Below, in pieces: positions 1,493-36,190 of a stretch of DNA of 64,000 nt. The stretch is from Mycobacterium branderi (GTDB lineage Bacteria; Actinomycetota; Actinomycetes; Mycobacteriales; Mycobacteriaceae), in NCBI RefSeq assembly GCF_010728725.1, contig NZ_AP022607.1, positions 800,258-864,257 of the forward strand, given 5' to 3'. The notes beneath the pieces are model-generated. The model worked only from the letters and a program-made list of their open reading frames with translations. It searched no databases and was not told the DNA's origin. Each line of letters opens with the position of its first letter. Position 1 is the first letter of the stretch. The translations under genes and the position numbers were made by a program.

Positions 1493-1508
1493 TCAACCGA
1501 GAGGTTGG
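1493..1508. promoter_or_regulatory. Type-1 operator, TCAAC-N6-GTTGG
   Basis: Imperfect copy (one mismatch) of the 16-bp palindrome CCAAC-N6-GTTGG found nine times in this window. The right arm continues as GTTGGGTA, as in several other copies. It lies upstream of the LLM gene starting at 1375. Inferred to be a binding site for a TetR-like repressor. Confidence 0.6.
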
Positions 1509-1620
1509 GTATGTCCGAAGAGGGGCGTCTGGATGCCACACCCCGCGGGGTGAACAGTCGCTCGCTCTATCCCCCGGGGGTAGGGCCATTAGTCGCTACA
1601 CGTGTCGCCGCCGCAGTCGA

Positions 1621-2754
1621 TCAAACAGTCACGACGCCGCGCAGGATCTTGCCGTCACGAAGGTCGTCGTATCCGTTGTTGATCTCGTCGAGCGAGTAGC
1701 GGCGGGTGATCAGCTCATCGATCTTCAACTTCCCGGATTCGTAGAGCGCGAGCAGCTCCGGAATCGCTATCCGAGGGTTCATCGAACCGAACACGGTGCC
1801 CTTCAATTCCTTGTTCCACAACACCAGGTCGTGAAGGGCCATCGGCACGTGAGTTTGGCTGAACGGTGCCACACCGACTGCCACGCACGTGGAGCCCTTT
1901 CCGGTGATGGACAACGCTTCGCTGAGAATATCGCCGTAAAGCACGCTGGGAGCCACGATCACCCGATGGCACAGCTGGCCCCGAGACAGCTCCTGGATCA
2001 GCGGTAGTGCCTCGCCGACCGATGACGCGGTGTGCGTCGCGCCGAACTCACGCGCCTTCTCTTGCTTGAACCCGATCGGATCGATAGCAATGACGACACG
2101 TGCACCAGCTGCGGCTGCGCCCTGGACCGCGTTGATGCCGATGCCACCTACGCCAATAACGGCGACGACGTCGCCCGGCTGGGTTTGTGCACGAACTACG
2201 GCCGCGCCCCAGCCTGTCGGAATACCACACGACAGCAGGGCAGCGATCTCGAAGGGGACGTGTTGCTCAACTTTGATCAACGAAAACTCATGTACGAGAG
2301 CGTATTCGGCAAAGGTGCCAAGGTTCGAGTAAACGTTCGTACCTTCTCCACGCCACAAGTGTTTGGGCTTGTCCGCCTTCTGCAGCAGACTGAATCCCAA
2401 ATCGCAAAGATATTGGCGTCCACTCGCGCACGATGGGCACGTGCCGCAAGCGGGCATGAAGCTGGTGGCCACGTGGTCACCGACTTGGAACCGTTCGACC
2501 GCCGACCCGACTTCGACGACAACGCCTGCGCCTTCATGTCCGCCAACGAGTGGAAACTGTGACGGCAAACCCATTGCCAAGCGCGCCTCTTCGGGTATGA
2601 CCATGTCACCGGTGGCCATGTGCTCATCGGAGTGACATAAGCCGGCGGCCCTGACTTCGACGATCACATCGTGAGGTTCGGGCTTGCCGAGCTCGACATC
2701 ATCCACGAGCCACTTCTCCCCTACCCCGGTGAGTAACGCTGCCCGCGTCTTCAC
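1621..2754 (-). CDS. NDMA-dependent-type alcohol dehydrogenase
   Basis: A full-length 377-residue zinc alcohol dehydrogenase. The catalytic-zinc ligands are Cys40 (GLCHSDEH) and His73 (GGHEGAG); four structural-zinc cysteines lie around 103-118 (CGTCPSCASGRQYLC). The nucleotide-binding loop GVGGIG is near residue 200, and the ending with LRGVVTV is typical of the group. Members oxidise primary alcohols with a tightly bound nicotinamide cofactor. The start is GTG at 2754, whose bases overlap the stop of the upstream FadD gene (GTGA), so translation is coupled. In context it would oxidise a P450-made or hydrolysis-derived alcohol. It is the last gene of the operon that starts at 8301. Confidence 0.9.
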   Translation of the reverse strand: MKTRAALLTGVGEKWLVDDVELGKPEPHDVIVEVRAAGLCHSDEHMATGDMVIPEEARLAMGLPSQFPLVGGHEGAGVVVEVGSAVERFQVGDHVATSFMPACGTCPSCASGRQYLCDLGFSLLQKADKPKHLWRGEGTNVYSNLGTFAEYALVHEFSLIKVEQHVPFEIAALLSCGIPTGWGAAVVRAQTQPGDVVAVIGVGGIGINAVQGAAAAGARVVIAIDPIGFKQEKAREFGATHTASSVGEALPLIQELSRGQLCHRVIVAPSVLYGDILSEALSITGKGSTCVAVGVAPFSQTHVPMALHDLVLWNKELKGTVFGSMNPRIAIPELLALYESGKLKIDELITRRYSLDEINNGYDDLRDGKILRGVVTV

Positions 2755-4355
2755 GATGTGCTCCCTACGGCGTTAGCGACCTCTCGGGCCCAGTTGTAAT
2801 CAGCCTTGCCCGCCGGCGACCGTCGGATCTCGTCGACAATCGCCACAGTTCGTGGAATCTTGTATCCCGCAAGTTGTTTACGCGCATGCGCTTGCAGCTC
2901 GGCAAGATTCATGGCGCATGCAGGGTGAATCGCGATAACAGCCGCCACCTGCTCCCCCAGCAACGGATCGTCAACCCCGACAACTATGGTGTCGAGCACG
3001 GCGGGGTGCTCTTTGAGCACCGATTCCACCTCATCCGGAAAAACCTTCTCTCCTCCGGTATTGACAACTAGCGACCCCCGGCCAAGGAGTGTGATTGTTC
3101 CGTCCTCGTTGCGGACGGCATTGTCTCCGATCACTGCCCACCGTCGACCATCAACGTCTGTTCGGAAGACTTCAGCGGTCTTTTTGTCATCTCGCCAGTA
3201 CCCGCTGGCAATGGCGCCTGAGGCCGCAAGTAGTCCAGTCTCTCCGACAGCCGCTTCGCTGAGGTCGCTTCGCAGGATGGCCGTGCCCGGGCGAACCTCG
3301 AACCTGGGAGGCTTCTCACCGTCGGCGCCCGCCCGGGTACCGATCGTGCCGGCCTCGCTTCCACCGTAGCCATCGACAATCTGGACGTGCGGCAACGCTT
3401 GTTTCAAGCCTGCCTTGACATGTGGAGACAACACCGCACCGCCTGATCCGAATGCCACTAATGACGAGAGGTCCCATCTGGCTGGATTCCGTTGCAGCTG
3501 TGCCAGTAACGGGGTCGCCATGGCGTCGCCGACAATGCTCATCACCTCAACGCCAAAATGCTGCACGGTGTCCCACACCCGCGGGGCGTCAAACGTCGGC
3601 CCTACCCACACAACCGCAGTGCCCGCGGATGCCCAGGCTCGTAGAACTGCCCATTGCCCGTTGCCGTGCATTAGGGGTGCGACAGCCATCGTCGCCGTGG
3701 CCGGCCGCTGGTCCCATTTCCCATCGGCCACATCTGAAATGAGTTGCCCCGTACCCGGGCCCCAATTGAGCGCTCCGTGAAACAAATTGTGATGCTTCCA
3801 ATAAACCCCTTTGGGCAGCCCGGTAGTTCCGCCGGTGTAGAGCAGGTAGCCATCGTTTCCGGACCTTCGGACAGAGACTCGCGCGGGATCCATATCGGCG
3901 AGCAGCGCCGAATAGCTCACCGACCCAGGGCTGTCCATCGGCGAGTCCATGTCGAGAACGACTACATGTGCACGTTGCCGTACCGTTTGTAGACAGGTCA
4001 GTATGACTTCCGCCAGTGCGGCTTCCACGACAACGACTTTGGGTTCGCAATCGGCGATGATGTGCGTGATTTCACTGGCGGTATAGCGGTAGTTGATGTT
4101 AACCGCCAGTGCGCGGATCTTGAAACAGCCCAGGAAGACGTCGAGCCACTCGATACGGTTGTGCGCCACGACTGCCACCCGGTCGCCTCGTTCGACTCCG
4201 AGACCCGCCAGCATATGGGCGCAGCGGTTACCGCGGTCGTCCATCTGCTGGTAGGTGTAGCTAAATCCGTCCGAGAGAGCCACCGCAGTTCGCTGAGGAA
4301 CGACGTCAACGATCACCTCGAAGAGGTCTGCGAGATTTACGCTGTGGTTGGTCAT
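2751..4355 (-). CDS. Acyl-CoA synthetase, FadD19-like
   Basis: Adenylate-forming ligase of 534 residues that activates a carboxylic acid as its CoA thioester. The P-loop-like motif YTGGTTGLPKGVYW lies near residue 175. The late GYGGSEAG, GRGSLVVNTGGEKVFPDE and AGYKIPR segments and the terminal RRSPAGKADY lysine motif are all present. The pattern resembles mycobacterial FadD19/FadD17-type ligases of steroid side-chain catabolism as I remember them. The reading frame extends upstream to 4514, but that would overlap the SDR gene. I chose ATG at 4355, preceded by GGAG. The stop overlaps the GTG start of the alcohol dehydrogenase by four bases. Confidence 0.88.
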   Translation of the reverse strand: MTNHSVNLADLFEVIVDVVPQRTAVALSDGFSYTYQQMDDRGNRCAHMLAGLGVERGDRVAVVAHNRIEWLDVFLGCFKIRALAVNINYRYTASEITHIIADCEPKVVVVEAALAEVILTCLQTVRQRAHVVVLDMDSPMDSPGSVSYSALLADMDPARVSVRRSGNDGYLLYTGGTTGLPKGVYWKHHNLFHGALNWGPGTGQLISDVADGKWDQRPATATMAVAPLMHGNGQWAVLRAWASAGTAVVWVGPTFDAPRVWDTVQHFGVEVMSIVGDAMATPLLAQLQRNPARWDLSSLVAFGSGGAVLSPHVKAGLKQALPHVQIVDGYGGSEAGTIGTRAGADGEKPPRFEVRPGTAILRSDLSEAAVGETGLLAASGAIASGYWRDDKKTAEVFRTDVDGRRWAVIGDNAVRNEDGTITLLGRGSLVVNTGGEKVFPDEVESVLKEHPAVLDTIVVGVDDPLLGEQVAAVIAIHPACAMNLAELQAHARKQLAGYKIPRTVAIVDEIRRSPAGKADYNWAREVANAVGSTS

Positions 4356-4425
4356 CTCTGCTCCGCCGTCGTCGGTCTGATTCCAAAAAGTCGGTGCCGA
4401 AGCGTCGTTGAGTTGTGCACCGGAA

Positions 4426-5214
4426 TCACAACGTCTCACCACCGTCGATGGCGATGACCTCACCAGTGAGGTATCCACTCTCCTCGCCGCAGAGATAAGC
4501 CGCCAGGGCCGCAAACTCTGACTCTGTGCCGTGGCGACCCGCGGGTATACGTGCGACCATCCGGCGGTAGGAGTCCTCGTCTTCGAATTGTGCCTGTGTC
4601 ATCGCAGTCCGAAAGTGGCCGGCCGCAATCGCGTTCACAGTGATGCCGTAGCGCGCCCATTCGCGCGCCAGTGAGCGAGTCAGCTGCACGAGGGCTCCCT
4701 TCGCCGTGTCATAGCAGGAGGTGAACGGGACTGTGCGCCGGACCACGTTGGAGACGACGTTGACCACCCGCCCATATCGTTGGTCGACCAAGGTGCCGCC
4801 GAATGCGCGCAGGACGCGCACTGCACCTCCGAGATGGGTTTCATGTAGTGCTGCCCACTCTTCTTCGCTGATCGCGGTATCGAAGCCCGGGAAGGAGTCC
4901 TCGATTCCGGGCAGCGGGATGAACGTCTTGTAAAGCAGACTTCCGGCGTTGTTCACGACGATGTCTACCCGGCCGAACAATCGTCTGACCTCGTCGTGGG
5001 CCTCCAGCACGGAGTCCGGTGCGGTCACGTCGGTGGATATTGCCGCAACTCGTACCCCGCAGGCACGAGCCTCATCGGCCACCGCGTCGAGCGCCTCACG
5101 AGACCTCGCCAATAACGCCACATCAGCACCCTCGTTTGCGAACCGAAGCGCAACGGCGCGACCCAGGCCGCGACTCGCGCCGGTAATCACCGCGACGCGT
5201 CCCCGCTGGATCAT
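4426..5214 (-). CDS. Short-chain dehydrogenase/reductase
   Basis: A classical SDR of 262 residues that would oxidise or reduce a hydroxyl/keto group using NAD(P). The cofactor motif TGASRGLG lies at about residues 11-18 and NNAG at about 89-92. The catalytic Ser and YDTAK fall at the usual 13-residue spacing. A loop insert between the NNAG strand and the catalytic Ser (GIEDSFPGFDTAISEEE) is longer than in most SDRs. The C-terminus ends in VIAIDGGETL, the normal substrate-side strand. It lies between the DUF7064-like gene and FadD in one operon; substrate unknown. Confidence 0.88.
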   Translation of the reverse strand: MIQRGRVAVITGASRGLGRAVALRFANEGADVALLARSREALDAVADEARACGVRVAAISTDVTAPDSVLEAHDEVRRLFGRVDIVVNNAGSLLYKTFIPLPGIEDSFPGFDTAISEEEWAALHETHLGGAVRVLRAFGGTLVDQRYGRVVNVVSNVVRRTVPFTSCYDTAKGALVQLTRSLAREWARYGITVNAIAAGHFRTAMTQAQFEDEDSYRRMVARIPAGRHGTESEFAALAAYLCGEESGYLTGEVIAIDGGETL

Positions 5215-5265
5215 GATGGCCTCACAGCGACCGCATCGAACAGGTCGGCAAGGTCGACTGAACGT

Positions 5266-6363
5266 TCAGCCACGTCGCTGCTTGCCACCCTTGCCCGCTT
5301 CGATCGATGCCGAGAACTCAAAGGGGGTTGTCCACCCGTAGCGTTGATACTGCAGCGCTACCAATTCGAAAACGCCGTAACCGGTTTCGTTACCCAGCCG
5401 GAATTCGCACAATGAGTCATGGATCGTGCCATGGCGCCGCGCCGCATCTGCATATTCCTTGTTGGGCCAGTGTTCCCAGCCGGCCTCTGGTCGGCCGAGC
5501 GCCGATGCGTAGGGGTTGGATAGATCCACTGGCTCGGGTGCCATGTAGCTCACCAGCGGGCCCAGGGCGCGGAACTCGAGAGCCTCATTCTTCCCATCAA
5601 CTGTTTGGAGCTGGACAGTGCCGCGGCTGGGCACCCGCTCGCCCTCGGCCAGCTCGAAGTCGTGATCCACGATCTGAACGCCCGGCCCAACTCGATCGGG
5701 ATAGCAGAATCCGCCGCTGGAGTACTGGATCTGTCCGGCCGCGTCCTCGAAGTGATACAAGCTAAGGCTCCGGTCCGGAAACTGGACACACGACCAGATC
5801 CAGAAGTCGAGTCCTTCGCGGATACCCCAGGTTCGGTCGCGCACACCGTACCAGCCGTCTGCCTCGTAGCGATTTCCGTCGATCTTCATCCAGCCGCGGT
5901 AAGTGCCCGACTGGTGCAGATGAGCGAAATCGTGTATTGCCTCCCCGTCGGGCTTTGCCGCCGAGATGCGATCGAACTCCCACGGCCGGTGTCGGGCCGT
6001 CCAGGAAAGGTCCATCTCCAGTCCGGACCCGTTGGGCATCATGGTTATTCGCCATTGCTTCATCGGCTCTACGATCTCGAAGGTGAATTCACCGATGTCC
6101 ATTCGGGCGCGATCGCCACTGATGGGTCGTACCCCGCGCCAGTCCGTCTGACCGCCGTTGATTCCCGGCACCGCCGAGATCACGTATGCGCTGGCCAAAT
6201 CGGTGTTCGGTGTGGTGCCCATACCGCACACCAACAGCACATCGCCATTGGTTGAGTGCACGTTGAAATAGTTACGTTCCTGCCATTCGGGCCTCCCGCC
6301 ACCCGGAATCGCAATGCTGTCAGTACTCTGGTGAATGAAGTAATCATCAAGTGGGACAAGCAT
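5266..6363 (-). CDS. DUF7064/CrtC-like protein, copy 1 of 4
   Basis: A 365-residue protein with no signal peptide or membrane helix. It belongs to a family I associate with DUF7064/DUF7065, distantly like hydroxyneurosporene synthase (CrtC) and AttH lipocalin-type folds. Characteristic segments are GWYGVRDRTWGIREG in the centre, an early WRGVRPIS, and ETGYGVFE near the end. The central R-D-x-(T/S)-W-G motif is shared with the copies at 24820, 40501 and 52390. The reaction is unknown; CrtC-type relatives hydrate terpenoid double bonds, so a lipid or terpenoid ligand is a reasonable inference. It follows the phosphotransferase gene at 6392 by 28 bases, a pairing seen three times in the window. 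Confidence 0.8.
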   Translation of the reverse strand: MLVPLDDYFIHQSTDSIAIPGGGRPEWQERNYFNVHSTNGDVLLVCGMGTTPNTDLASAYVISAVPGINGGQTDWRGVRPISGDRARMDIGEFTFEIVEPMKQWRITMMPNGSGLEMDLSWTARHRPWEFDRISAAKPDGEAIHDFAHLHQSGTYRGWMKIDGNRYEADGWYGVRDRTWGIREGLDFWIWSCVQFPDRSLSLYHFEDAAGQIQYSSGGFCYPDRVGPGVQIVDHDFELAEGERVPSRGTVQLQTVDGKNEALEFRALGPLVSYMAPEPVDLSNPYASALGRPEAGWEHWPNKEYADAARRHGTIHDSLCEFRLGNETGYGVFELVALQYQRYGWTTPFEFSASIEAGKGGKQRRG

Positions 6364-6391
6364 GCCGGTTCCTTAATCGCATGGCCTGCGG

Positions 6392-7423
6392 TCATTCCTT
6401 AACTGGTAAGAGGGCGAGCAAGTCGTAGGCCCGTTTGAGCAGGATGTCAATTACCGCTCCCCACTGCGCCATGCGCTCATCGGGTAATGCGCCGGTCTCG
6501 TAGGCGATAGCCCCCTGGTGGAGGATGCCGGCGAGCTTTGCGATCGCGGCTACCTCGTAGACCTCAACGCCACGAGCGCTCCGACCGCTGACCTTTTCCC
6601 AGGTTTTGATGGTTTCCCCGCGCGAAAACATGCCAGGCAGCGCGAAGTAGTCGTAGCTGGGCAATGGTATGTCGCGAACATCGATATCTCCCGGGAACCA
6701 CCCGAGTACGTAGCCGAGGTCATACAGCGGTTCACCGTTGTGTGCCATCTCCCAATCCAGGAGCGCGGTGAGCTTGCCGCCGTGCCAGAGCGTATTCCCG
6801 ATCTTGGGATCACCATGCACCACGGCAGGTTCGCCGCTGCGGACGAAGCCAAGATCTGACAGAGTGTCGAAGACCGTTGCGATCGCTAACCCTTGAGCCG
6901 CGTGTTGTTTCGATTTTGTGGAGTTCCGTTGCGCACGTTTGCGCCACTCCCCGTAGACCGCTTCCGGCGTTAGTGGGCGGCCCAGGCTGGGCTGCGGTGG
7001 CGTCCGGTTCACCGTCGCGATCGCCGTAATCCATTGTTCGCACAGCCGGTGGCGGAATTCAGGGGTGCACTCGGCGAGCCAGGCGGGTGCTTCGTACTCG
7101 AACGATTCGCCACGCATCGCCGAGCACAGATAGAAGGGTGCTCCGATGAATTTCTCGTCGGTGCACACGCCGTAGACGCGGGGCACCGGCACGTCGGGTG
7201 CAGCTTGCCGGATGTCCGCGAGCACGTCGTGTTGTCGCTTCATGTCGTAGGGCGGCAGCAGGCCCGGGCCCTCCGGCGGAGTTCGCAGGATCATGTCGAT
7301 GCCGCCGAGCCGGTAGGTTTCATTCGAGTGTCCCGCGGCCAACGTGTCGACAGTCGTGACCGCGCCCGGTCGACCCAGAAACGCCTCCACTCCTGCGGCA
7401 AGTGTCTTCGTGTCACGAGGCAT
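6392..7423 (-). CDS. Aminoglycoside-phosphotransferase-family protein (APT), copy 1 of 3
   Basis: A 343-residue kinase-like protein of the APH/ACAD10 type. The N-lobe has AGHSNETYRLG and ILRTPP. The catalytic loop is HGDPKIGN (about residue 205) and the metal-binding LLDWEMAHNGEP follows. All expected catalytic residues are present, so phosphotransfer to a hydroxyl is plausible; relatives phosphorylate hydroxyacyl-CoAs or small alcohols. It is unlikely to be a resistance gene, given its place in a catabolic operon between an SDR and a DUF7064-like protein. The start is ATG at 7423, 23 bases after the SDR stop. Confidence 0.85.
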   Translation of the reverse strand: MPRDTKTLAAGVEAFLGRPGAVTTVDTLAAGHSNETYRLGGIDMILRTPPEGPGLLPPYDMKRQHDVLADIRQAAPDVPVPRVYGVCTDEKFIGAPFYLCSAMRGESFEYEAPAWLAECTPEFRHRLCEQWITAIATVNRTPPQPSLGRPLTPEAVYGEWRKRAQRNSTKSKQHAAQGLAIATVFDTLSDLGFVRSGEPAVVHGDPKIGNTLWHGGKLTALLDWEMAHNGEPLYDLGYVLGWFPGDIDVRDIPLPSYDYFALPGMFSRGETIKTWEKVSGRSARGVEVYEVAAIAKLAGILHQGAIAYETGALPDERMAQWGAVIDILLKRAYDLLALLPVKE

Positions 7424-7446
7424 TGACGTCTCCGTCTTCTGAAGAG

Positions 7447-8301
7447 CTAGCGTGTTGGGCGGAATCCGGCGGATGCCACGAACTCCGGGCTGGTCGCCTT
7501 TTCGATGAGCGGATCGATATTCGGGCCACCACGCAGGTGATGGCCGCCGTCCACATCGAGGATGGCGCCGGTGATCCAGGCAGATTCGTCCGACAGCAGG
7601 AATGCGACAGCCGCGGCGACATCTTCGGGAGTGCCGGTCCGCGCCAGCGGCATCTTGTCCAGATAATCCTGGCGCACGGAAGGTGTCTGCACCAGCTCCG
7701 TTGACGCTTCCGTTGGCACTAGTCCCGGGCGCACGGCATTGACACGGACGCGCAACACGCCCAGTTCGTCAGCGGCGGTGCGCACGAGCATTTCCAGGCC
7801 GGCTTTAGAAGCGTTGTAAGACACCATGAATCGATGAGTCAACACCCCGGCGATGGATGACATCGCGACGATCGAACCGCCCCCGGCCTCGGCGATGGCT
7901 CGACCCGCATGCTTGATGGTCAAAAACGACCCAGTCAGGTTGGTGGCGAGGACGGCATCCCAGCTGGCTTTGTCAGCACTCAAAATGGGTCCGCCGGAGC
8001 CGAAGCCGGCATTGACTACCGCAAGGTCGAGGCGTCCAGTTCGCTCAGACGCCGCAGCCACGGCCCGGATCACCGCCGCCTCGTCGGACACGTCGCAGAC
8101 AACCCCGTTGGCTCGATCACCAAGTTGCGTGGCTGCGCTTTTCAGCTTCGTCTCGTCGCGGCCGCAGACCGTAACCCATGCTCCTTCTGCAATCAGAAGT
8201 CGGGCACACGCCAACCCCAGGCCGGAAGCCCCGCCGGTGACAATGGCGCTGCGGCCGACAAATCGACCCCGACTCCTCTGTGACACCTCGGTGTCTGGCA
8301 T
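7447..8301 (-). CDS. Short-chain dehydrogenase/reductase, first gene of operon
   Basis: A classical SDR of 284 residues. Visible motifs are TGGASGLG (cofactor binding, about residue 23), NAGFGSGG, the catalytic SSIAGV serine and YNASK, and the late PGLVPTE segment. It would interconvert a secondary alcohol and a ketone with NAD(P). The frame is open up to 8373, but that extension reads through the type-1 operator. I chose ATG at 8301, giving an MPDTEV start about 30 bases downstream of the operator. It heads the minus-strand operon running down to 1621. Confidence 0.87.
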   Translation of the reverse strand: MPDTEVSQRSRGRFVGRSAIVTGGASGLGLACARLLIAEGAWVTVCGRDETKLKSAATQLGDRANGVVCDVSDEAAVIRAVAAASERTGRLDLAVVNAGFGSGGPILSADKASWDAVLATNLTGSFLTIKHAGRAIAEAGGGSIVAMSSIAGVLTHRFMVSYNASKAGLEMLVRTAADELGVLRVRVNAVRPGLVPTEASTELVQTPSVRQDYLDKMPLARTGTPEDVAAAVAFLLSDESAWITGAILDVDGGHHLRGGPNIDPLIEKATSPEFVASAGFRPTR

Positions 8302-8330: not shown

Positions 8331-8348
8331 CCCAACTGGCTAGTTGGG
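8331..8348. promoter_or_regulatory. Type-1 operator, perfect 7-bp arms
   Basis: CCCAACT, four bases, AGTTGGG: the best copy of the type-1 palindrome in the window, with GTTGGGTA on the right. It lies 29 bases upstream of the SDR start at 8301, where a bound repressor would block transcription of the 8301-1621 operon. Confidence 0.75.
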
Positions 8349-8414: not shown

Positions 8415-8624
8415 TTAAGGCGGCGACTGCCTCAACCGCAACGCCCGTTTGGGGCAGCTGTCCACTGCCTGCCGGGCACGCTCGAGCATGTCGTGCTGCG
8501 GCCGGACCTCGAGTATCTGCAACGCATCTTCGTCGTCAAGAGCGAACAACTCGGGTGCTATGCCAACACATACGGCATTGGCCTCGCACACATCGGCGTC
8601 GACGGTCAGTTCGACATCAGCCAT
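8415..8624 (-). CDS. Small 3Fe-4S ferredoxin, P450 redox partner
   Basis: A 69-residue ferredoxin of the kind that passes electrons to cytochrome P450s. Cluster ligands are Cys13 and Cys19 (CEANAVC) plus a late CPKRAL cysteine. The fourth ligand position of the first motif is Asn, as in other mycobacterial ferredoxins with a variable residue there, so a 3Fe-4S cluster is expected. The frame extends upstream to 8675, but ATG at 8624 gives the normal MADVELTVD start. It overlaps the racemase stop by eight bases. It probably serves the P450 at 9836-11065 in the same operon. Confidence 0.9.
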
Positions 8625-9723
8625 GATCCTCTTCCCAACCGGCCAGAATTTGATCCAGATCGCACCATTTACCATCGAGTTCGGGCAGCTCAGTCCGAGT
8701 GCGCGAAAACCGTGGCGCGGGCATGGCCTGAACGACCCCGGTCCGCTTTGCCACTGTTTCGCGGGCAGCGATGTGAGGATGGTTGCATACCTCCCCGAAC
8801 GAGAGCACCGGCGTCACACAAGCATCGGTGCCGGCGAACAACCTCTCCCAATGCTCGCGCGGGCGAGACGCAAAGACGTTGGCAAATCTCGCTTTTGTCT
8901 CGGGCCAGTGTTGTCGATCCAATTGATCGGGAAGAGTCGCAGCATCTATACCCAGTCCGTCGATGAGCGCTCGGTAGAACTGCGGTTCGATGGCTCCCAC
9001 CGCCACAAAGCCGCCATCGGCGCACTCGTAGGTGTCGTAGAACGGTGCATAACCGTCAAGCAGGTTCGACTCACGCTCATCCTTCCATTGGCCCAGCGGC
9101 AGAAGCCCCCACACCATTTGCGCGAGAAGCGACGCGCCATCGATCATGGCGGCGTCGATCACCTGTCCGGAGCCTGAGCGCTGTGTTTCCCACAGCGCCG
9201 CAAGTATGCCGATTACCAGAAGCATTGAGCCGCCGCCGAAATCACCGATCAGGTTCAGCGGTGGCACGGGACGCTCCTTCGCTCGCCCGATGGCGTGCAG
9301 CACGCCGGTCAGCGAAAGGTAGTTGATGTCGTGGCCTGCTCTTAGGGCCAGCGGCCCTTCCTGCCCCCACCCGGTCATACGGGCGTAGACCAGGCGAGGA
9401 TTGCCGGCATGACAGTCCGCGGGGCCGAGCCCGAGCCGTTCGGCGACTCCGGGCCGGAAGCCCTCGAGCAGCACATCGGCAACCTGCACCAGCCGTAACA
9501 CGTCCGCTCGGCCAGCCGAATCTTTCAAATCAACCAGCATGCGGCGGCGACCACGCATCATCGGCTGTGGTGCGTCCGGCGAATCCAATTGCTCGCGGTA
9601 GGACGGCCGCTCGATGCGCACGACGTCGGCACCGAGGTCGGCGAGCAGCATCGCCGCGTGCGGGCCAGGGCCGATACCGGCCAGTTCCACGATCCGCAAT
9701 CCCGCCAACGGTCCCGGCGTCAC
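8617..9723 (-). CDS. CaiB/BaiF family protein, probable alpha-methylacyl-CoA racemase
   Basis: A family III CoA-transferase fold protein of 368 residues, close to the usual 360 for alpha-methylacyl-CoA racemases. The opening [19 protein letters not shown], the GHDINYL histidine and GDFGGGS aspartate segments match the racemase catalytic pair (His126/Asp156 in the M. tuberculosis enzyme, from memory). It would epimerise 2-methyl-branched acyl-CoAs so that beta-oxidation can start, as needed for pristanic-type or sterol side chains. The frame opens at TTG 9819, but the extra 32 residues are not family-like; I chose GTG at 9723, with GAGGGGG upstream. Its neighbours are a P450 and a ferredoxin. 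Confidence 0.85.
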
Positions 9724-9835
9724 GCCCAGCGCCCCCTCATGTTGCAAGCCGGTGTCGCGGTGCTTCTTCAGCAGCTGCTCGTATTTCGTTAATTGCCAAG
9801 ACCGTTCTCTCTCCTGCAAGGCCGCCCCGACTGGA

Positions 9836-11065
9836 TCAGTAGCGGACGCCCTTTAGTGACGGCGTGAATCTCAAGTTGACCTCGGTAGGGCCCGAGATGA
9901 AGTTCGACGCCAACCAAGTCGGTTCGCCGACCAGCTCCAAGTTCGGTAATCGGGTAAGCAGGCGGCTCATCATCGCCGAGATCTCGAGCCTGGCGAAATG
10001 TGCTCCCAGACAGAAGTGCGGTCCCCCCGCGCCGAATCCCATGTGAGGATTGGGATGCCGGTCCACGATGAAATCGTCGGGATCGGCGAAAACCGCAGGA
10101 TCCCTGTTTGCGGCCCCGAAGTATAGAAGAACCTTTTCGCCTGCGGCGATGTTGACCGCACCCAGCCGAGTGTCCTGCAATGCCGTCCTGCGCATGAAGA
10201 CCACCGGGCTTTGGTAGCGCAGAAACTCTTCGACGGCCCGGGGCATCAAACCTGCGATGTCAGCGATCAGTCGCGATTTGGCGTCGGGATGCTCGAACAG
10301 CGTTAACATCGCACCGCCCACCAGGTTCCGTACCGTGTCACCGCCGGCGTTGACGAGCAGCAGGATGAACAAGTTGAAATCCAGGTCATCGAGCCGGTGA
10401 CCGTCGACTTCCGCGTGCACCAAACGGCTGGCAAGAGATTCATCGGGCTGCCGGACTTTCCTCGCGCGCAGATCGGTTCCGAACTGGAGCATTTCCTCGC
10501 GAGCCGCGGCGCGCTGCTCATCGCTGACCGCATCCTGTGCCGAGTGCATGACCTCCGTCAGTTCGTATAGCCGGATACCGTCTCGACGTGGGACACCGAG
10601 CAGTTCGGCAACCAGATACGACGGGAGCAACCCGGCGACTTGGCTCATCAGCTCGCATTCACCGGCTTCGCAGACTTGATCGATGATCTCGTCGGCCAGC
10701 CGGTCGATCAGCGAGGCCCAGCGGGCGGCGCTGCGGGGGGTGAACTCGCTGCTGACCAGCTTGCGGTACTGCGTATGCCTCGGCGGATCCATGAACATCA
10801 TCATGTGCTGGATCGCTGAAAGTTCGGTTTCGCTGACGTCATACATCGTCATTCCGAATCGATTACTGAAAATCTGCGGGCGGACGCTGGCTTCCTTGAC
10901 CAAGCCAGCAGTTGTGACCGCCCAGAACCCCGCACCGCCGGGCTCATCATGCCAGTACACCGGTGCGTTCTCTTGCAACCAGTGATACTGATGCACTGGA
11001 TGGCCGTTGGCAAACGACGCGGAGCTCCAGAGATCGATGGAGACATTAGTTGTGGTTGCGTTCAC
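9836..11065 (-). CDS. Cytochrome P450
   Basis: A soluble P450 of 409 residues. The I-helix reads NAGGDTVRN (acid-Thr pair present), ExxR is EEFLR, and the haem loop is [12 protein letters not shown] with Cys352 as proximal ligand. The [20 protein letters not shown] segment is typical of bacterial lipid/sterol-hydroxylating P450s. The precise CYP family cannot be assigned by eye. It sits in an operon with an NTF2-like protein upstream and a racemase and ferredoxin downstream, which suggests hydroxylation of a methyl-branched or steroid-like substrate with the ferredoxin as electron donor. Confidence 0.92.
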
Positions 11066-11158
11066 GATGCCCTCTCCCGGGACAGCAAGTTCGGTCGTCC
11101 ACTACTTCACATTTCGCGCGATTGCCCGCACAGTCTGGTGAGCGTGCATTCTGCGGTG

Positions 11159-11649: not shown

Positions 11650-11665
11650 CCAACTCATTGGTTGG
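11650..11665. promoter_or_regulatory. Type-1 operator between divergent genes
   Basis: CCAAC, six bases, GTTGG, with GTTGGGTA continuing on the right. It lies 11 bases upstream of the NTF2-like start (minus strand) and about 200 bases upstream of the aldehyde dehydrogenase (plus strand). One bound repressor could affect both promoters. Confidence 0.72.
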
Positions 11666-15335: not shown

Positions 15336-15353
15336 GCGACAAGGAAAGTCAAC

Positions 15354-27036: not shown

Positions 27037-27654
27037 CGTCGTTAGCCTCTCGTCACCCAGAGCGGCTCGCGGCGTTCTGCCCCGGGCTTTTCCGCCGATT
27101 TCAATCGCACGCTAACTTTTCACACAATAGACAGTCAAGACTTGAACAAATCCCGCAACCTGCTGCCGCGGTTATCTTCCCGGAAGGATTGGCGCGATGT
27201 CGATCAGGTATGGCCAGGGCACCAAAGCCCCGGCGCCACAGCGGATCTGCAAGCACCGCGACAACTGCGACCTTCGCTACAACGCCGGGTATGTCGGTTC
27301 ATCGACACGCAGCAGTCTCGCTTCGAGAGGTATCACAAACTCCTGAGTACCCTTGGTCAAAGTATCGGCACTGGTCATGTGGCTGCCCGGCGTCGGTCAA
27401 GGCCGCTACCACTTTGGAACGCCCGCCTTGAGTCAGCCGGTGTGCAGGAGTGGGCCACGGCGGCCTCTGCTTTGAGGAGATAGCCGGGACGAGAGGCTGA
27501 TGACACCGCAGATTGGCGCTAGTAAGTCGGATCCCAACCGAATAGTTGACAACGGTTGCGCAGATCTGACAGCCTTGGCACATCGACCGCTCTGACTTGG
27601 AAGGCTGCCGTGTGACTACAGGGTGGGCTGAACGCGGGAGGGGGTGATGCTCGC
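27037..27654. other. Long intergenic region with one operator
   Basis: This 618-base stretch lies between the divergent cyclase and P450 genes. I see no convincing gene; the frames here have no family motif or ribosome binding site. The only recognised element is the type-1 operator at 27534-27549. It could be a graveyard of an older gene, but I could not match it to anything in the window. Confidence 0.5.
27534..27549. promoter_or_regulatory. Type-1 operator upstream of P450
   Basis: CCAAC, six bases, GTTGA (one mismatch in the right arm). It lies 105 bases upstream of the P450 start, nearly the same distance as the copy before the paralogous P450 at 36291. Confidence 0.65.
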
Positions 27655-28902
27655 ATGAGCGGGTCTCGGCCTTACGACGAAATCGACATCTCCTCAGCAA
27701 AATTTTGGGCCAGCCCCTTGCAGGAGCGGGACAAGGCATACGCCATGCTTCGCCGGGAGCGGCCGGTGTCTTGGCACCGACCGGTCGAATCTGGAGCGCA
27801 TCGCGCCGAGGGTGATGGATTCTGGGCCGTCGTCCGGCATGCAGATGTGGCCGACGTACACCGGCGTCCCGCCGAATTCTGCTCGGGACAAGGCATCTTT
27901 TATCAAGATATGCCGCCAGAGGTGTCCAAGTACATGTCTTTCATGGCGCTCGATGCACCGCGCCATACCAAGCTCAAGCGCCTGGTTAGCACCGCGTTCA
28001 CGCCACGGGCAGTCGCGGCGCTCACCGAACGGGTAACCGAACGCGCACGAATGATTGTCGACGAGTTGATCAACCACGGCCCGGGAGACTTTCACGAGCT
28101 GGTCTCGAAACGCCTGCCGCTGTGGGCGATCAGCGAAATGGTCGGTGTGCCCGAAGATGAGCGGAAAGCACTCGGTGAGTTGACCGACGACATGGAGCAC
28201 ATCAACGACCCCAGCTTTGCGGTGAAGTATCCCGGCGTTGATCCCTATGAGTTCAATGTCCAGGGCCTGGCGCGGATGGCTGAGCTGGGCCGCCGGCTCG
28301 CTGCAGAACGGCGTCAGCGGCCGCAAAACGATTTGATGACCGCGCTTGTGCAGGCATCCGTGGACGGCGAGAAGCTATCCGATGAGGAGATTGGCGACTT
28401 CTTTGATCTGCTGATCTCGGCTGGCTACGCCACCACCGTCCACAACATCAGCATCGGCTTGCATGCGCTATCCCAGTTCCCGGGGGAACGCAAGCTGTTG
28501 TGCTCCGACATGGACAGCTACCTGCGTCCGGCTGTCGAGGAGATGCTCCGATGGACGACCGTCGGCGTCAACTTCCGGCGCACCGCAACAGCGAAAGCAA
28601 CGTCCATCGCCGGCCAGAAAATCGACCCCGGCGACAAAGTCGTGCTGTTCCTGCTGTCAGCGAATCGCGACGAAACAGTGTTCGACGATCCGTGGTGCTT
28701 CAAGATCACCCGCGACCCCAATCCCCATGTGGCGTTCGGGGGCGGAAGCCATTTCTGCCTCGGTTCCCCGCTCGCTCGCCTTGAACTGGAGACGATTTTC
28801 CGCGAGCTTCTGTCCCGTCTGCCCGACATCGAGGTGGTGGATGCGCAGTACATGGTAGGCAGTCACTTGAACGCGGTGAATCGGCTGGAAGTAGCCTTCT
28901 GA
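27655..28902 (+). CDS. Cytochrome P450, paralogue of the one at 36291
   Basis: A P450 of 415 residues. ExxR is EEMLR and the haem loop AFGGGSHFCLG carries Cys368. The I-helix reads SAGYATTVHN: the acidic residue that normally precedes the conserved Thr is Ala, while the paralogue at 36291 has AGYETTVHT. This could slow proton delivery during oxygen activation. The two proteins match from the N-terminal SSAKFW block to the final HLNxxNxL. ATG at 27655 follows GGGAGGGGG. Type-1 operator 105 bases upstream. Substrate unknown. Confidence 0.9.
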   Translation: MSGSRPYDEIDISSAKFWASPLQERDKAYAMLRRERPVSWHRPVESGAHRAEGDGFWAVVRHADVADVHRRPAEFCSGQGIFYQDMPPEVSKYMSFMALDAPRHTKLKRLVSTAFTPRAVAALTERVTERARMIVDELINHGPGDFHELVSKRLPLWAISEMVGVPEDERKALGELTDDMEHINDPSFAVKYPGVDPYEFNVQGLARMAELGRRLAAERRQRPQNDLMTALVQASVDGEKLSDEEIGDFFDLLISAGYATTVHNISIGLHALSQFPGERKLLCSDMDSYLRPAVEEMLRWTTVGVNFRRTATAKATSIAGQKIDPGDKVVLFLLSANRDETVFDDPWCFKITRDPNPHVAFGGGSHFCLGSPLARLELETIFRELLSRLPDIEVVDAQYMVGSHLNAVNRLEVAF

Positions 28903-31386: not shown

Positions 31387-33519
31387 TCATATGCTGAGGA
31401 TCAGGCTGTTCCAGCGGTCCATCACGGCCCGTTGCCGATCGCGTAACGCGAGGACGGTGTCTGCGAACTCAACCACCGCCGGACCATCAACGGCGGCGCC
31501 GGCGGTAAGTTTCGCGCCCGAATACACCGGCGTCGGCACGGGGTGCGGCCCGCTGTCGTACCAAATCACGGAACGTTCGTCCATGGGTTCGGCGCGGTAG
31601 GCCGGCGCGTCTACCCCGGGCCGCAGTTGAAAGTCGGTAGTGCGCGCGCGGGCAGCTACCCGCAATGAGGTGATCACGTAGCCGGCGAGCGGATACCCGC
31701 TACCGCGACCGTAGAGCTGCTCGTACTCTTGCTCGAACGCCGCAACCAGTTCGTCTAACGCGGCCGCGCTGCACGGTCCGGCGGGAGCGGGCACGGTCAG
31801 CTGGTTCACCTGCATCGCATAACGCATCTCGACGAAGCGTTGATACGTCGGGCCGGCCCGCCGAACCTCAGGTGAAAGCTCAGCCTCGACATTGCGTTCG
31901 AGCTGACTCCATAAATCCTCAAGGTCGTTCGGGTTGAACGGGGAGGACAACAGTACGGCGGCGTCGCGGACGACGACAGCGTCGGCAGAAGCGACTCCGA
32001 ATGCCGACCACCCGGCCGCGAGGTCGCCGAGGGGCATTACCACGGTCGTTATTCCCAGCGCACGTGCAACTGCGGGACAGTGCAGCGCGCCGGCCCCTCC
32101 GTAGCAGTACATGACGCACCCGCGCGGGTCGTAGCCCTGCTGGATACTCGACATCCGGATGGCGTCGGCCATGTGAGCATCCAAGATATGTGCCGCACCG
32201 GCGGCCGTTTGCTCGGCACTGAAACCGAGCGGGGCCCCGGCCCGCTCCAGCGCTTCGCGCGCGGCCGGCACGCTCAACTCCAGCTGCCCACCGAGGAACG
32301 TCGACGGATTCAACAGGCCGAGAACCAGATCGGCGTCGGTTATGGTGGCCTCCACACCGCCGCGGCAATACGCGGCCGGGCCGGGTACTGCACCCGCGCT
32401 GCGTGGTCCAACCCGCAGACTTCCTGTCTGGTTGTCGTAACCGACAATACTGCCCCCACCCGCGCCGACTGAGCGTACGTCGAGTGTCGGCACGAAGTAC
32501 TCGTACTGGCCGTAGCGGGTGGTCATGCGGGTTACCGGGCGGCCCCGCCGGATGATTCCCACGTCGAATGTCGTGCCGCCCATGTCAGCGGTCAGCACGT
32601 CGGGCCGCTCCGCCTGCTCTGTGACTGCCGATGTGCGGGCCAGCCTGCCCGCACCGATCACGCCAGCGACCGGTCCCGATCCGATTGTGAGCAACGGTCG
32701 TTCACGCGCGGCTCGCACGTCGATGAGCCCGCCCGTACAACTCATGATGGACAACTGCCCGCGGTAACCGAGTTCGGTGAGCCGTGACTCCAACTCTTTC
32801 AGATAATTAGAGGTAATCGGACCGATCATCGCGTTGATAACCGTCGCCACGGTGCGCGGGTACTCTCCCCGGCGCGCGACGACCTCCGAACTCAGCGATA
32901 CGAAGGCTCCCGGTGCTTCTTGCACTACCAATTCGCCCAATCGCCGCTCGTGCTTCGCATTCACGGTCGACCAGAGCAGAGCGATCGCGAACGTTTCGAC
33001 TCCGGCGCCCAGCAGTTCGCGAACCTGACGGCGGGCAGCCGTGTCGTCCATTTCGACAACCACTGCCCCGTCAGCGGCTACCCGCTCATCGACTTCGCGG
33101 ATGAGCTGCTTCGGAACCAGCGGCGCGGGCTTCGTGTGACCCGCCAGGCGGGCGATCTCACGGGCGTCCAGCTCCGCCAGCCGGTGACCGGCCTGCATGA
33201 AACTCAGTGTGTCGCCGTGGCCGGCCGTGGTGAGCAGCCCGACCGGCGGAGTGCGCCGTTCCACCAGGGCATTGGTACCCACCGTGCACCCGTGCAGAAC
33301 CGCCCCGGCCCTGCAAAGAAGTTCAGCGGCGCCAAGGCCGAGATCGCGGGCCGCGGCGGACACCGCGTCGACGAACCCATCCTGGAAGGTGGGCGGGGTG
33401 GAAGGCGCTTTGCCGATCACGATCTGCCCGGTTGGGTCGAGGACCACGCAATCGGTGAAGGTGCCACCGACGTCCACACCGATGATGTATCCGCTCGCGG
33501 GGAAATCGACCCCGTTCAC
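31387..33519 (-). CDS. hyuA: Hydantoinase A/acetone carboxylase beta-like ATPase subunit
   Basis: A 710-residue HyuA-type protein. The ATP-binding ASKHA start is GVDVGGTFTDCVV, followed by HGCTVGTNALVERR, the DMGGTTFDVGIIRRG phosphate loop and the YCYGGAGALHCPAVARALG segment. Together with the gene upstream it forms the two-subunit core seen in N-methylhydantoinases, 5-oxoprolinases and acetone/acetophenone carboxylases, where this subunit hydrolyses ATP. GTG at 33519 overlaps the stop of the alpha subunit gene by four bases (GTGA), so the two are coupled. Confidence 0.92.
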   Translation of the reverse strand: MNGVDFPASGYIIGVDVGGTFTDCVVLDPTGQIVIGKAPSTPPTFQDGFVDAVSAAARDLGLGAAELLCRAGAVLHGCTVGTNALVERRTPPVGLLTTAGHGDTLSFMQAGHRLAELDAREIARLAGHTKPAPLVPKQLIREVDERVAADGAVVVEMDDTAARRQVRELLGAGVETFAIALLWSTVNAKHERRLGELVVQEAPGAFVSLSSEVVARRGEYPRTVATVINAMIGPITSNYLKELESRLTELGYRGQLSIMSCTGGLIDVRAARERPLLTIGSGPVAGVIGAGRLARTSAVTEQAERPDVLTADMGGTTFDVGIIRRGRPVTRMTTRYGQYEYFVPTLDVRSVGAGGGSIVGYDNQTGSLRVGPRSAGAVPGPAAYCRGGVEATITDADLVLGLLNPSTFLGGQLELSVPAAREALERAGAPLGFSAEQTAAGAAHILDAHMADAIRMSSIQQGYDPRGCVMYCYGGAGALHCPAVARALGITTVVMPLGDLAAGWSAFGVASADAVVVRDAAVLLSSPFNPNDLEDLWSQLERNVEAELSPEVRRAGPTYQRFVEMRYAMQVNQLTVPAPAGPCSAAALDELVAAFEQEYEQLYGRGSGYPLAGYVITSLRVAARARTTDFQLRPGVDAPAYRAEPMDERSVIWYDSGPHPVPTPVYSGAKLTAGAAVDGPAVVEFADTVLALRDRQRAVMDRWNSLILSI

Positions 33520-35846
33520 GTGAACAACACCTCCGCCAGCGCCGGCTCGGCGGCCCGCACGACCTCAGTGCTCATCAGCACCTGGCAAGCCGGACAGCAG
33601 TAGCGCCGAAAGACCATGTCTTCGTCGAGGAACACCCGCGGATCGCCCACCGTGGGAATGAGACTCACATCGGCCTGCTCGACGAGCAGAGCCAGCTTGT
33701 AATTCGCGCGATAGTCGGTGAGGACTACACCGCATCGAGCGCACGCGAGCACTCGATGCCTCGCCTCGTCGCGCTCGATCAGGTACTCATGTACGGGCCT
33801 GGGCGGGGCGCCGGTCGCCGGTGAGGTCAGCGCGGGGACGGGTTCACCGAAGAATTCCGCGGCCGGTCGCCATCTACCGCGCTCGGCGCGGATCTCGTTG
33901 CGCCGCCGCGAGGTTGCAGCGAAGTCCACGTCGCCGGAGTCGGCAATCGCCACGCCATAGACCCGCAGCGCCGCATCGGCCGAAACGTACCCGCCCGCGA
34001 CGTCATATCCGACCTTGCTCGGCTCCCGTTCCAGCGGGTCGCCGTATCCGCCCCCTCCGCATACGACCAGCAACAGCGCATCGCCGTCGCGGAAGGGGGT
34101 GCCGTTGGACTTTCCGCGCAGCCGCAGGCGTTCTGCACGTTCGAGCTCATCGACCGTGCGAGGCATGTGCTTGCATTCCCAGTGCTTGGCCAGGTCGGTC
34201 TGGGTAAGCATTTGATAGTGCGCGGTAGGCGACGGATAGCCACCGAATACTCCCGCGGCCTGATTTGTCGAGACCGATTGGCCCGCAGCATTGGTGATGA
34301 TCTCGATGCCGCCGGCTCGATAGGGTGTGATCGCGACCTCGTTGCCGACCCCACCGCGCCACCGCCCGGCTCCACCGGTGTCCTCTGCCTGTCTGCGATA
34401 GAGCACGAGTATGGGATAGAACTGTTCACTATCCTCCACGTTGGGCATCCGGATGAGCGGATCCGATGATGAGCCGCACGTTTCGACGCCATCCATGTGG
34501 GAGCGCGCTCCCCCGCCGAAACCGCACGCTTCTGTCAACGCAGTTCCGAAGAAGTTGCCGCGATCATTGGTTCCCGCGATCACCGTCAACGGCGTATCGG
34601 GGCCGGAGACGCTGGCATCATGTGCCAGCTCGGGATCGTTGATCATGAGCCGGGTGAAGATGTTGCGCAGCCGCTCATAGCAGCTGCTGATGTTGAGCAC
34701 CCCACCGCTGACGGCAGCGGGATGGTCAACGCAGGTCAGCTTGCCGGGCAGAGGATGGAAGTCGATCTGCCGCTCCGCGCCGCCGACAGAGAAGGTGTGT
34801 TCGTGCAGCAGGGTTTGACCTGTTACGCCCAGGACAATCCCGACGAAGTTCGTGTAGGTAAACCCGTTGGGCCCTTCGCTTTGATCATCGGTGCCGACAT
34901 TGTCGACCAGCAAGCGTGACCCGCGCTTCGTGATATTGAACTGCACGCGGTGGGTTGTCCGATCGCCTGGAAGATTCTCGTCAAAGTACAGCACTTCACT
35001 TAGCACGCAGTCAGGAATGCGTTCTAGCTTGCGCGCGAAGGCTTTTTGGGCGTTGTCCAGGATGCGGCGCATCCCGGCTTTGACAGCGCGTGCTCCGAAC
35101 TCATCGCAGGCTTCACACAACCGGCGAGCCGCGAAGCGGCAACCTGCCAGCTGGGCACGCATATCCAATGCAACCATGTCCGGCGTCCTCGACTGACGCC
35201 GGTACATTTCTTCCAAATCCATACGCAGAACGCCCTTTTCGACCATTTTGAATGGCCGGAACACCACCGGGTCGCTGAAGACGTCGGGTGCGTTTTGCGG
35301 CCATCCCCCCGGAACGATTCCTCCGAGGTCGTACTGCTGGGCGGCGTTGGAAACCCATGCGAAAAGGCCCCCATTGACGAACACGGGCATTGCCACACAG
35401 ACGTCCATCTGATGCGACGCCCCGATCCACGGATCATTGGCCACGAAGATGTCGCCATCCTCGATACCGGGGCTCTCGCTCATTCGCTCCATCACATAGC
35501 GCACAAGCAGTGTCGACCCGGTGTTGAGGTACTGCATGAAGGGCGCTCCCATGACAATCTCGCCATCCTCGCTGAGCAGCGTCATGTTGAAATCGAGTGC
35601 CTGAAAGATCGGTGAGCCGGACATCCGGGTCAACGTGTCGCCGTGGCCGATGTTGATCGTCCAGAGGCGGTTGCGAAGCACTTCGAAGGTGATCGCATCC
35701 AGGTCCTCATCGACATCAGTGTTGAACCTGAGCTTGGAGGAGAGCCGATCCCGCCAATCCGGCGCGGGACGGTAGCTATGCGTCCAACCGTCCCACTCGA
35801 TTCCGTCAAGTGCGCCCATGCGCTCGCCCCTGAGATCGTCCGTCAT
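33516..35846 (-). CDS. hyuB: Hydantoinase B/acetone carboxylase alpha-like subunit fused to a gamma-like zinc-ribbon domain
   Basis: A protein of 776 residues. The first 600 or so are a HyuB-type subunit: ITFEVLRNRLW, VANDPWIGASHQMDV, GGWPQNAPDVF, TNFVGIVLG, and a GGAGRWRGGVGNEV glycine-rich segment. The last 100 residues add a module with CARCG, YRANYK and CCPAC pairs, like the small zinc-binding gamma subunit of acetone carboxylase. HyuB-only hydantoinases lack this domain, so an ATP-dependent carboxylase of a ketone is more likely than a hydantoinase. I chose ATG at 35846 after GGGAAG; another ATG is at 35819. The frame from 35906 would run through the operator. Confidence 0.88.
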   Translation of the reverse strand: MTDDLRGERMGALDGIEWDGWTHSYRPAPDWRDRLSSKLRFNTDVDEDLDAITFEVLRNRLWTINIGHGDTLTRMSGSPIFQALDFNMTLLSEDGEIVMGAPFMQYLNTGSTLLVRYVMERMSESPGIEDGDIFVANDPWIGASHQMDVCVAMPVFVNGGLFAWVSNAAQQYDLGGIVPGGWPQNAPDVFSDPVVFRPFKMVEKGVLRMDLEEMYRRQSRTPDMVALDMRAQLAGCRFAARRLCEACDEFGARAVKAGMRRILDNAQKAFARKLERIPDCVLSEVLYFDENLPGDRTTHRVQFNITKRGSRLLVDNVGTDDQSEGPNGFTYTNFVGIVLGVTGQTLLHEHTFSVGGAERQIDFHPLPGKLTCVDHPAAVSGGVLNISSCYERLRNIFTRLMINDPELAHDASVSGPDTPLTVIAGTNDRGNFFGTALTEACGFGGGARSHMDGVETCGSSSDPLIRMPNVEDSEQFYPILVLYRRQAEDTGGAGRWRGGVGNEVAITPYRAGGIEIITNAAGQSVSTNQAAGVFGGYPSPTAHYQMLTQTDLAKHWECKHMPRTVDELERAERLRLRGKSNGTPFRDGDALLLVVCGGGGYGDPLEREPSKVGYDVAGGYVSADAALRVYGVAIADSGDVDFAATSRRRNEIRAERGRWRPAAEFFGEPVPALTSPATGAPPRPVHEYLIERDEARHRVLACARCGVVLTDYRANYKLALLVEQADVSLIPTVGDPRVFLDEDMVFRRYCCPACQVLMSTEVVRAAEPALAEVLFT

Positions 35847-35902
35847 GCTTGCTTCCCGGCCCAGGGACCACAGGATGCGGCGAAGCGAAGACAGGACAGA
35901 TA

Positions 35903-35918
35903 CCAACCATCGAGTTGG
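35903..35918. promoter_or_regulatory. Type-1 operator upstream of hyuB-like gene
   Basis: CCAAC, six bases, GTTGG; the arms extend to ACCAAC and GTTGGT. It lies 56 bases upstream of the ATG at 35846. Confidence 0.74.
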
Positions 35919-36174
35919 TTACGCTATTTCCAAGGGATGGCGATAGTCAAGCACTGGCAAAGGGCAGTTGTGCTCTCGGCGGTGTCCTCGGGTCTGCCGG
36001 TTCTCGATTTCGGGCAGCAGCTACCGGCGGTGTCAGTCTCATTTCGGTTTACCGAGGTGCAAGCCTAGGCAAGGCTCGCGATCGAGCATGATTCTCAGGG
36101 GCTGCGCAACATCCGTTCATCGTGGCTGCTGCAAGCCGTAAGAGCTAAGCGGCAACCTGTCCTCGGGCCGTTAG

Positions 36175-36190
36175 CCAACTAACTAGTTGA
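36175..36190. promoter_or_regulatory. Type-1 operator upstream of P450 at 36291
   Basis: CCAAC, six bases, GTTGA, the same single mismatch as the copy at 27534. It lies 100 bases upstream of the P450 start. Confidence 0.66.

Follow-up and report, generated by a model that had tools for sequence, protein, structure and literature searches.

What protein binds a palindrome that stands before one catabolic operon after another in Mycobacterium branderi, and what do these operons serve? Here, we analyse a stretch of 64,000 nucleotides of this genome (the window: assembly GCF_010728725.1, contig NZ_AP022607.1, here called C2, positions C2:800258-864257), for which an earlier note had listed nine copies of CCAAC-N6-GTTGG and proposed that one regulator, probably of TetR type, controls the operons that follow them. 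We consider it highly likely that these palindromes are the operators of a single autoregulated TetR-family repressor, g34; its regulon may serve a sterol- or terpenoid-like substrate.

The palindrome and its clustering

All nine copies were found, six of them exact and three with one mismatch, and only the coordinate 8331 needed correction, by one, to 8332. Allowing up to one mismatch, the palindrome occurs at 11 places in the window, where 2.14 are expected and none of 100 shuffles reached 11; the two places missing from the earlier list, the one-mismatch matches at 16435 and 17096, do not exceed 8 bits with the site matrix described below. The 5.98-Mb genome (two contigs), whose GlmS protein shows 98% identity to one of Mycobacterium kyorinense, harbours 15 exact occurrences, and four of the pattern read backwards. 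Nine of the 15 fall within the 52 kb of C2:784279-836175, six in the window and three to its left. One-mismatch forms numbered 166 in the whole genome versus 172 for the backward control, and since these totals are alike, only the cluster is special and the core word elsewhere is background.

A symmetric matrix built from 13 sites of the cluster describes a full site of about 22 bp, WWnYCAACYrnnyRGTTGRnWW, with conserved A/T pairs just outside the half-sites, Y and R at their inner edges and a loose centre. Over C2:760000-864257 this matrix found 17 places above 8 bits, 15 of which reached at least 20 bits, while 40 Markov copies held a mean of 0.025 places above 16 bits versus the 15 observed. 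The remaining two are an intergenic match of 12.6 bits at C2:797507 and a match of 12.5 bits inside a gene. The intragenic match, at C2:862405 (window 62148), is the same as C2:17566 and is doubled only by an overlap in the assembly. A longer pattern with up to one mismatch had 10 of its 11 genomic places in the cluster, and with up to three mismatches it occurred at 46 places genome-wide versus 21 for the backward control. A strict pattern occurred 0-3 times on the forward strand of each of 117 other genomes of the genus and eight times in that of M. branderi (five in the cluster, three on the chromosomal contig, C1); counted on either strand there were 13 occurrences, 10 of them in the cluster. 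De novo counting of palindromes gave partial support, CCAAC-N6-GTTGG ranking first in the cluster of the window (9) and tied first in that of another genome, G424 (10).

The genome-wide scan that the earlier note had suggested finds the good sites gathered before catabolic operons and not spread through genes or unrelated promoters. That chance or base composition produced the cluster is in our estimate a negligible prospect: one-mismatch matches outside the cluster do lie at background level, but the shuffles, the genome-wide clustering and the conservation in other genomes all speak against it.

Placement of the sites

Genes were called with a simple codon-usage script. By these calls all 15 sites of at least 20 bits are intergenic and upstream of catabolic operons, in 13 intergenic regions, with nine of the 15 within 60 bp of the nearest called start and 14 within 120 bp. 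The initial observation that every copy is intergenic and precedes a catabolic gene thus extends to all 15, with the caution that the longest open reading frames, which begin at earlier GTG or TTG codons, contain or touch 8332, 11650 and 35903. Divergent genes flank more sites than the two first reported, namely 11650/11777, 22443 and 35903/36175 in the window and C2:790046 and C2:797422 outside it. The array continues to the left of the window at C2:784279, 789015, 790046, 795261 and 797422. New beyond the earlier list are C2:797422, between an APH-like gene and a TetR gene, and 11777, before an aldehyde dehydrogenase (ALDH) gene. The sites of the window, with the strand of the genes that follow and the distance to the called start, are as follows (LLM, luciferase-like; ADH, alcohol dehydrogenase; SDR, short-chain dehydrogenase/reductase).

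1493..1508, predicted operator before LLM oxidoreductase, zinc ADH and SDR (minus strand); 25.4 bits, 117 bp
8332..8347, predicted operator before the SDR-APH-DUF7064-SDR-FadD-ADH operon (minus strand); exact core, 30.8 bits, 30 bp
11650..11665, predicted operator before SnoaL-like, P450 and CoA-transferase III genes (minus strand), divergent from ALDH (plus strand); exact core, 32.4 bits, 11 bp
11777..11792, operator-like site 72 bp before ALDH (plus strand); 20.5 bits, 12.4 bits by the other-genome matrix (below)
13413..13428, predicted operator before FadD and P450 (plus strand); exact core, 30.3 bits, 215 bp
19588..19603, predicted operator before the KshA_C-type Rieske oxygenase (minus strand); exact core, 31.2 bits, site before 4 of 4 orthologs counted
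22443..22458, predicted operator between LLM/FadD (minus strand) and the FadE operon (plus strand); exact core, 33.7 bits, site before 2 of 2 FadE orthologs
27534..27549, predicted operator before the CYP268/CYP124-like P450 (plus strand); 30.0 bits
35903..35918, predicted operator before the carboxylase-like HyuB-HyuA pair (minus strand); exact core, 26.3 bits, site before 2 of 3 HyuB orthologs
36175..36190, predicted operator before P450 (plus strand); 32.3 bits, 100 bp

A TetR-family gene inside the array

The TetR gene g34 (C2:797674-798465, 263 amino acids) lies 1.8-2.6 kb to the left of the window, inside the array of sites, and a 21.4-bit site is found in the divergent promoter between it and the APH-like gene g33. 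Its product carries an N-terminal TetR helix-turn-helix (PF00440, TetR_N; 58.1 bits versus a cut-off of 24) and a ligand/dimer domain (PF17932, TetR_C_24; 73.3 bits). The AlphaFold model is mostly helical, with a mean pLDDT of 80.7 and low confidence after about residue 200. A Foldseek search with this model matched TetR structures best, with KstR2 (4w97) first at 24% identity over the aligned part and AibR in complex with isovaleryl-CoA in tenth and eleventh place; in a profile search 3dcf, 3vpr and 5k7f ranked above KstR2. From the ranking of KstR2 and of the isovaleryl-CoA form of AibR, an acyl-CoA inducer of g34 seems plausible. The palindrome is very probably the docking site of g34, a regulator encoded just outside the window.

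Conservation of regulator and sites in other genomes

At E 1e-50 or better, g34 was found in one of 396 sampled genomes of the genus (its own), three of 397 of the order and one of 394 of the class, samples that have genomes in common and are not independent of one another. Even in the genus it is not alone: Mycolicibacterium sp. XJ1819 has a protein with 59% identity to it across 74% of the query. This scattered distribution, with no g34 in the 395 other sampled genus genomes and relatives in other families, fits horizontal gain.

Scanning a collection of species genomes with two peptide patterns yielded 28 loci, 15 with close relatives of g34 (L050-L064, 50-77% identity), and 13 with distant TetR similarity only (L065-L077). 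The former belong to Dactylosporangium, Actinomadura, Nocardia, Actinophytocola, Mumia, Nakamurella and two metagenome-assembled genomes. With the matrix of the window, sites above 14 bits were present in 13 of the 15 close-relative loci versus none of the 13 distant control loci, and in eight of the 15 the TetR start has a site no more than 150 bp upstream. Sixteen ortholog loci together held 44 sites, 41 of them called intergenic, and five Markov copies held 1, 0, 0, 0 and 0; the three sites called inside genes would be explained by shadow frames, apparently chosen in L050 and L064. Whole-genome scans were made of 10 carriers, their forward places being counted among the matches listed, which include none for G756, G757, G759 and G763 and part of those for G761. 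Among the matches listed, 18 of 22 in G424 and 10 of 12 in Dactylosporangium sp. AC04546 cluster round the TetR gene. Forward totals against the backward control range over the carriers from a clear excess (13 versus 2) to hardly any (7 versus 6).

The proposal of one regulator, probably TetR-type, for these operons is strongly supported by the TetR gene within the array and by the co-occurrence of TetR, site and operons across genera. It is unlikely, though far less so than the chance explanation, that another regulator of the same genome, a different TetR or an activator encoded elsewhere, binds the sites with g34 as a mere neighbour. The window does hold two further TetR-type genes, at 43974-44603 (identified by eye) and 44747-45403 (PF00440), but both were rejected as the regulator, there being no site of at least 14 bits near either; moreover, the site accompanies the g34 family in Dactylosporangium, Actinomadura, Nocardia, Actinophytocola and Nakamurella, and its frequent position just upstream of the TetR start also argues for g34.

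The sites were also found before orthologous operons in three fetched clusters, those of G424 (92 kb, 24 sites), G761 (Nakamurella lactea, 70 kb, 16 sites) and G755 (60 kb, 11 sites), for each of which all eight Markov copies held no site. Sites precede the orthologs of the Rieske oxygenase in 4 of 4 cases, the thiolase in 3 of 3, the FadE g55 in 2 of 2, HyuB in 2 of 3 and the FadEa g30 in 5 of 7, so that conservation upstream of orthologous genes, which the earlier note had named as a test, was observed for many of them. A second matrix, trained on 37 core matches of these three genomes without any constraint on the flanks, has A/T there as well (70 of 74 and 66 of 74 letters); over C2:760000-864257 it found 16 places above 12 bits, comprising all 15 sites and C2:764183. 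The latter (L016) is a weak extra site, of 15.3 bits by this matrix, before a gene read by eye as a GntR-type regulator that starts at C2:764226.

Points against a single regulator

Several observations weigh against g34 as the one regulator of these sites. The site at its own gene, with 21.4 bits, belongs to the weaker ones, and it is closer to the APH-like gene (70 bp) than to the TetR start (236 bp). Orthologs of the enoyl-CoA hydratase g23 have a site in 0 of 4 cases, those of the APH-like g33 in 1 of 5 and those of the FadD g31 in 2 of 5, and the difference between operon-head genes (24 of 41 ortholog cases with a site) and operon-internal genes (16 of 47) is modest (one-sided p 0.018). 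The TetR gene was the anchor by which loci were fetched, and linkage to the operons alone could pair it with the site; the 15 loci amount to 13 records (L050/L054 and L051/L055 share records), and no site above 14 bits was found in L059 (Mumia) or in L063, which is cut off at the TetR gene. Packing is weak in three Nocardia genomes, where the contig of the TetR gene holds 4 of 11, 3 of 13 and 3 of 15 of the forward matches listed, and forward counts hardly exceed the backward control in G759 (Actinophytocola, 7 versus 6) and G763 (Mumia, 6 versus 4). De novo, coding repeats outrank CCAAC-N6-GTTGG in the GC-richer G761 and G755, and among 14 TetR upstream regions CAAC-N6-GTTG was found in four loci versus five for CGCC-N0-GGCG.

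On the same side stand three single sites on the chromosome, C1:480093, 1158458 and 1365856 (L084, L085 and L083; 17.5-21.9 bits), before an LLM oxidoreductase, a FadE5-like acyl-CoA dehydrogenase and an ALDH (by eye), which g34 leaves unexplained. AACCGGTT is present in two of them, and an identical copy of the 20-mer at C1:1158456 is found in G071, a sampled genome of the genus without a g34 ortholog; another regulator is therefore likelier at these places, and they were rejected as distant members. There, a word that is nearly the same may serve some other conserved regulator. The exact core at C1:4676759 was likewise set aside, having no matrix match above 12 bits.

Proposed mechanism and sign of control

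Without inducer, one or more g34 dimers would sit on the 22-bp site and block the catabolic promoters in the 13 intergenic regions, and the repressor would be released by an acyl-CoA formed within the pathway. The operons so controlled would supply P450s, alcohol and aldehyde dehydrogenases, acyl-CoA ligases, a FadE pair, enoyl-CoA hydratases, SDRs, a thiolase, a KshA-like Rieske oxygenase and an acetophenone-carboxylase-like pair. Computation directly gave the sites, how they cluster and where they are placed, and the association of TetR, site and operon across genera; we infer the binding, repression, autoregulation, acyl-CoA inducer and substrate class. An activating g34, or one that represses some promoters and activates others, is an unlikely alternative that we hold somewhat less remote than a different binding protein. 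Four of the 15 sites (1493, 13413, 27534 and 36175) do lie at least 100 bp before the nearest called start, but the nine within 60 bp are placed where a bound protein would block transcription, and the characterised relatives KstR2 and BkaR are repressors according to the parts available of PMC3068626 and PMC3920632.

Comparison with known regulators

The motif had been held to be unlike the sites of KstR and KstR2, and it indeed differs from the sites published for KstR2 and BkaR, as far as the available text of those papers goes, and from that of KstR in its spacing. KstR, the regulator of cholesterol catabolism, likewise has a large TetR-controlled sterol regulon and an AAC...GTT palindrome; its consensus is TnnAACnnGTTnnA, with an AAC-GTT spacing of 2, whereas the spacer in the cluster sites is 6.

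KstR2, the best fold match of g34, is similar in being a TetR repressor of an adjoining catabolic regulon (steroid catabolism) with palindromic operators in divergent promoters. Its operator, AnCAAGnnCTTGnT, is given as 14 bp in three promoter regions, and the KstR2 orthologs treated are more than 50% identical to the Mycobacterium tuberculosis protein (PMC3068626, available part). The g34 site, in contrast, spans 16-22 bp with a 6-bp spacer, YCAACY-N4-RGTTGR, and occurs in 13 intergenic regions. That g34 is KstR2 itself was rejected, with only 24% identity to 4w97, other profile matches ranking higher and a different operator. BkaR/Fad35R resembles the proposed g34 system in being an autoregulated TetR repressor with a 16-bp palindromic core, but core letters and target genes differ, the BkaR core being GTTA(N)T(N4)A(N)TAAC before branched-chain keto-acid genes (PMC3920632, available part). 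Mce3R is another TetR-type regulator of lipid genes near an mce operon, but as a double TetR protein with non-palindromic operators (PMC11667970, available part). KstR3 of Mycolicibacterium neoaurum is also a TetR/AcrR gene, in a sterol side-chain operon, and no operator is stated for it (PMC10398937, available part). Among the papers listed by searches of openly licensed literature, none treats this motif or regulon; for one query 15 of 708 matches were listed, all of them by TACCCAAC.

Genes of the regulon and likely substrate

The genes that follow the sites in the window are as follows.

482..1375, minus strand, LLM oxidoreductase (PF00296), first gene after site 1493
1621..8301, minus strand, six-gene operon of SDR, APH-like, DUF7064, SDR, FadD and zinc ADH (Pfam; operon inferred from gene order)
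8617..11638, minus strand, SnoaL-like, P450 (CYP125-like) and CoA-transferase III (Pfam and PDB sequence search)
11865..13304, plus strand, ALDH (PF00171)
13644..16631, plus strand, FadD and P450 (Pfam)
18486..19547, minus strand, Rieske oxygenase with KshA_C domain (PF00355 and PF19298), with KshA structures as the only PDB matches at 1e-10
19766..22369, minus strand, LLM oxidoreductase and FadD (Pfam)
22478..25995, plus strand, FadE, a gene without family match and an Rv3169-family gene (family searches)
27655..28902, plus strand, P450, CYP268/CYP124-like (best PDB sequence match CYP268A2)
31387..35846, minus strand, hydantoinase A and B / acetophenone-carboxylase-like pair (PF05378/PF01968/PF19278 and PF02538/PF08882)
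36291..37535, plus strand, P450 (PF00067)

To the left of the window the regulon holds, from left to right, two enoyl-CoA hydratases; an LLM oxidoreductase with FadD; a divergent SDR and thiolase; FadD with a FadE pair; and the APH-like and DUF7064/7065 genes, divergent from the TetR gene. Next come the LLM oxidoreductase, ADH and SDR that follow site 1493. Identification was by eye for g31 (FadD), for g33 (APH-like) and for this ADH and SDR, which lie where the window begins. Twice in the regulon (window 5266-7390 and L017:15286-17352) an APH-like kinase gene is paired with a DUF7064/DUF7065 gene, and such pairs are found in the clusters of other genera too.

The enzyme set looks like a pathway for an isoprenoid, that is a sterol- or terpenoid-like substrate, and no single enzyme is close enough to name it. 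This class is suggested by the closest solved relatives of the P450s, the Rieske protein, HyuB and FadE: two P450s are of the CYP268A2 and CYP125/CYP124 types, and the hydantoinase B part matches best the delta subunit of acetophenone carboxylase in the PDB. One FadE has as its best solved relatives the 4x28 chains, which we take to be the steroid enzyme FadE26-FadE27, and Tcur3483, presumably steroid-related. An mce operon, read by eye at the left border (C2:771870-782971, L016/L017), was rejected as a member of the regulon, its first called gene being 1.3 kb from the nearest site.

Replicon setting

Window positions 44557-63999 match C2:1-19419 at 99.64% over 19.4 kb. As the first and last 19.4 kb of the contig match in dovetail order, C2 very probably forms a circle of about 844.8 kb, the overlap having been left untrimmed in the assembly. 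All 45 tRNA matches are on C1 and none on C2; a TrwC relaxase domain is found at C2:531018, and C1 also carries one. Its location on a circle of about 845 kb might suggest that the array is a feature of that replicon, such as partition or nucleoid sites of a megaplasmid, and not a set of operators; we regard this as very improbable, though short of negligible, as a similar array lies on a 4.88-Mb contig in G424 and the sites come singly or in pairs in the promoter regions of orthologous enzymes. In a collection of 72,556 plasmid records, a 24-kb DNA query gave one match, of 47 bases, and with the TetR protein as query the best-ranked match had 36% identity and all were below 60%.

Meaning of the regulon

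The results support the view that the g34-type regulon is a TetR regulon of known type, for which a candidate regulator, operator and gene set are now defined. The same regulator, word and genes are found side by side in soil actinobacteria that are not related to one another, which suggests a breakdown pathway not yet described. More tentatively, and with somewhat less than even confidence, we suggest that a single undescribed TetR repressor and a single operator word hold together a catabolic regulon of 50-80 kb that passes from one actinobacterial lineage to another, its carrier in this Mycobacterium being a megaplasmid of about 845 kb. The undescribed pathway that it would encode would be induced by an acyl-CoA and would act on an isoprenoid through the KshA-like Rieske oxygenase and the acetophenone-carboxylase-like enzyme. 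For a catabolic system without description in the literature searched, the analysis names a candidate regulator and its target operons and supplies a precise matrix for the operator, and the operator word can be used to find the pathway in other genomes and to sort its genes. As the regulator would also be a sensor, a reporter driven by one of its sites would allow sterols, terpenoids and bile acids to be tried as inducers, and would thereby reveal the substrate.

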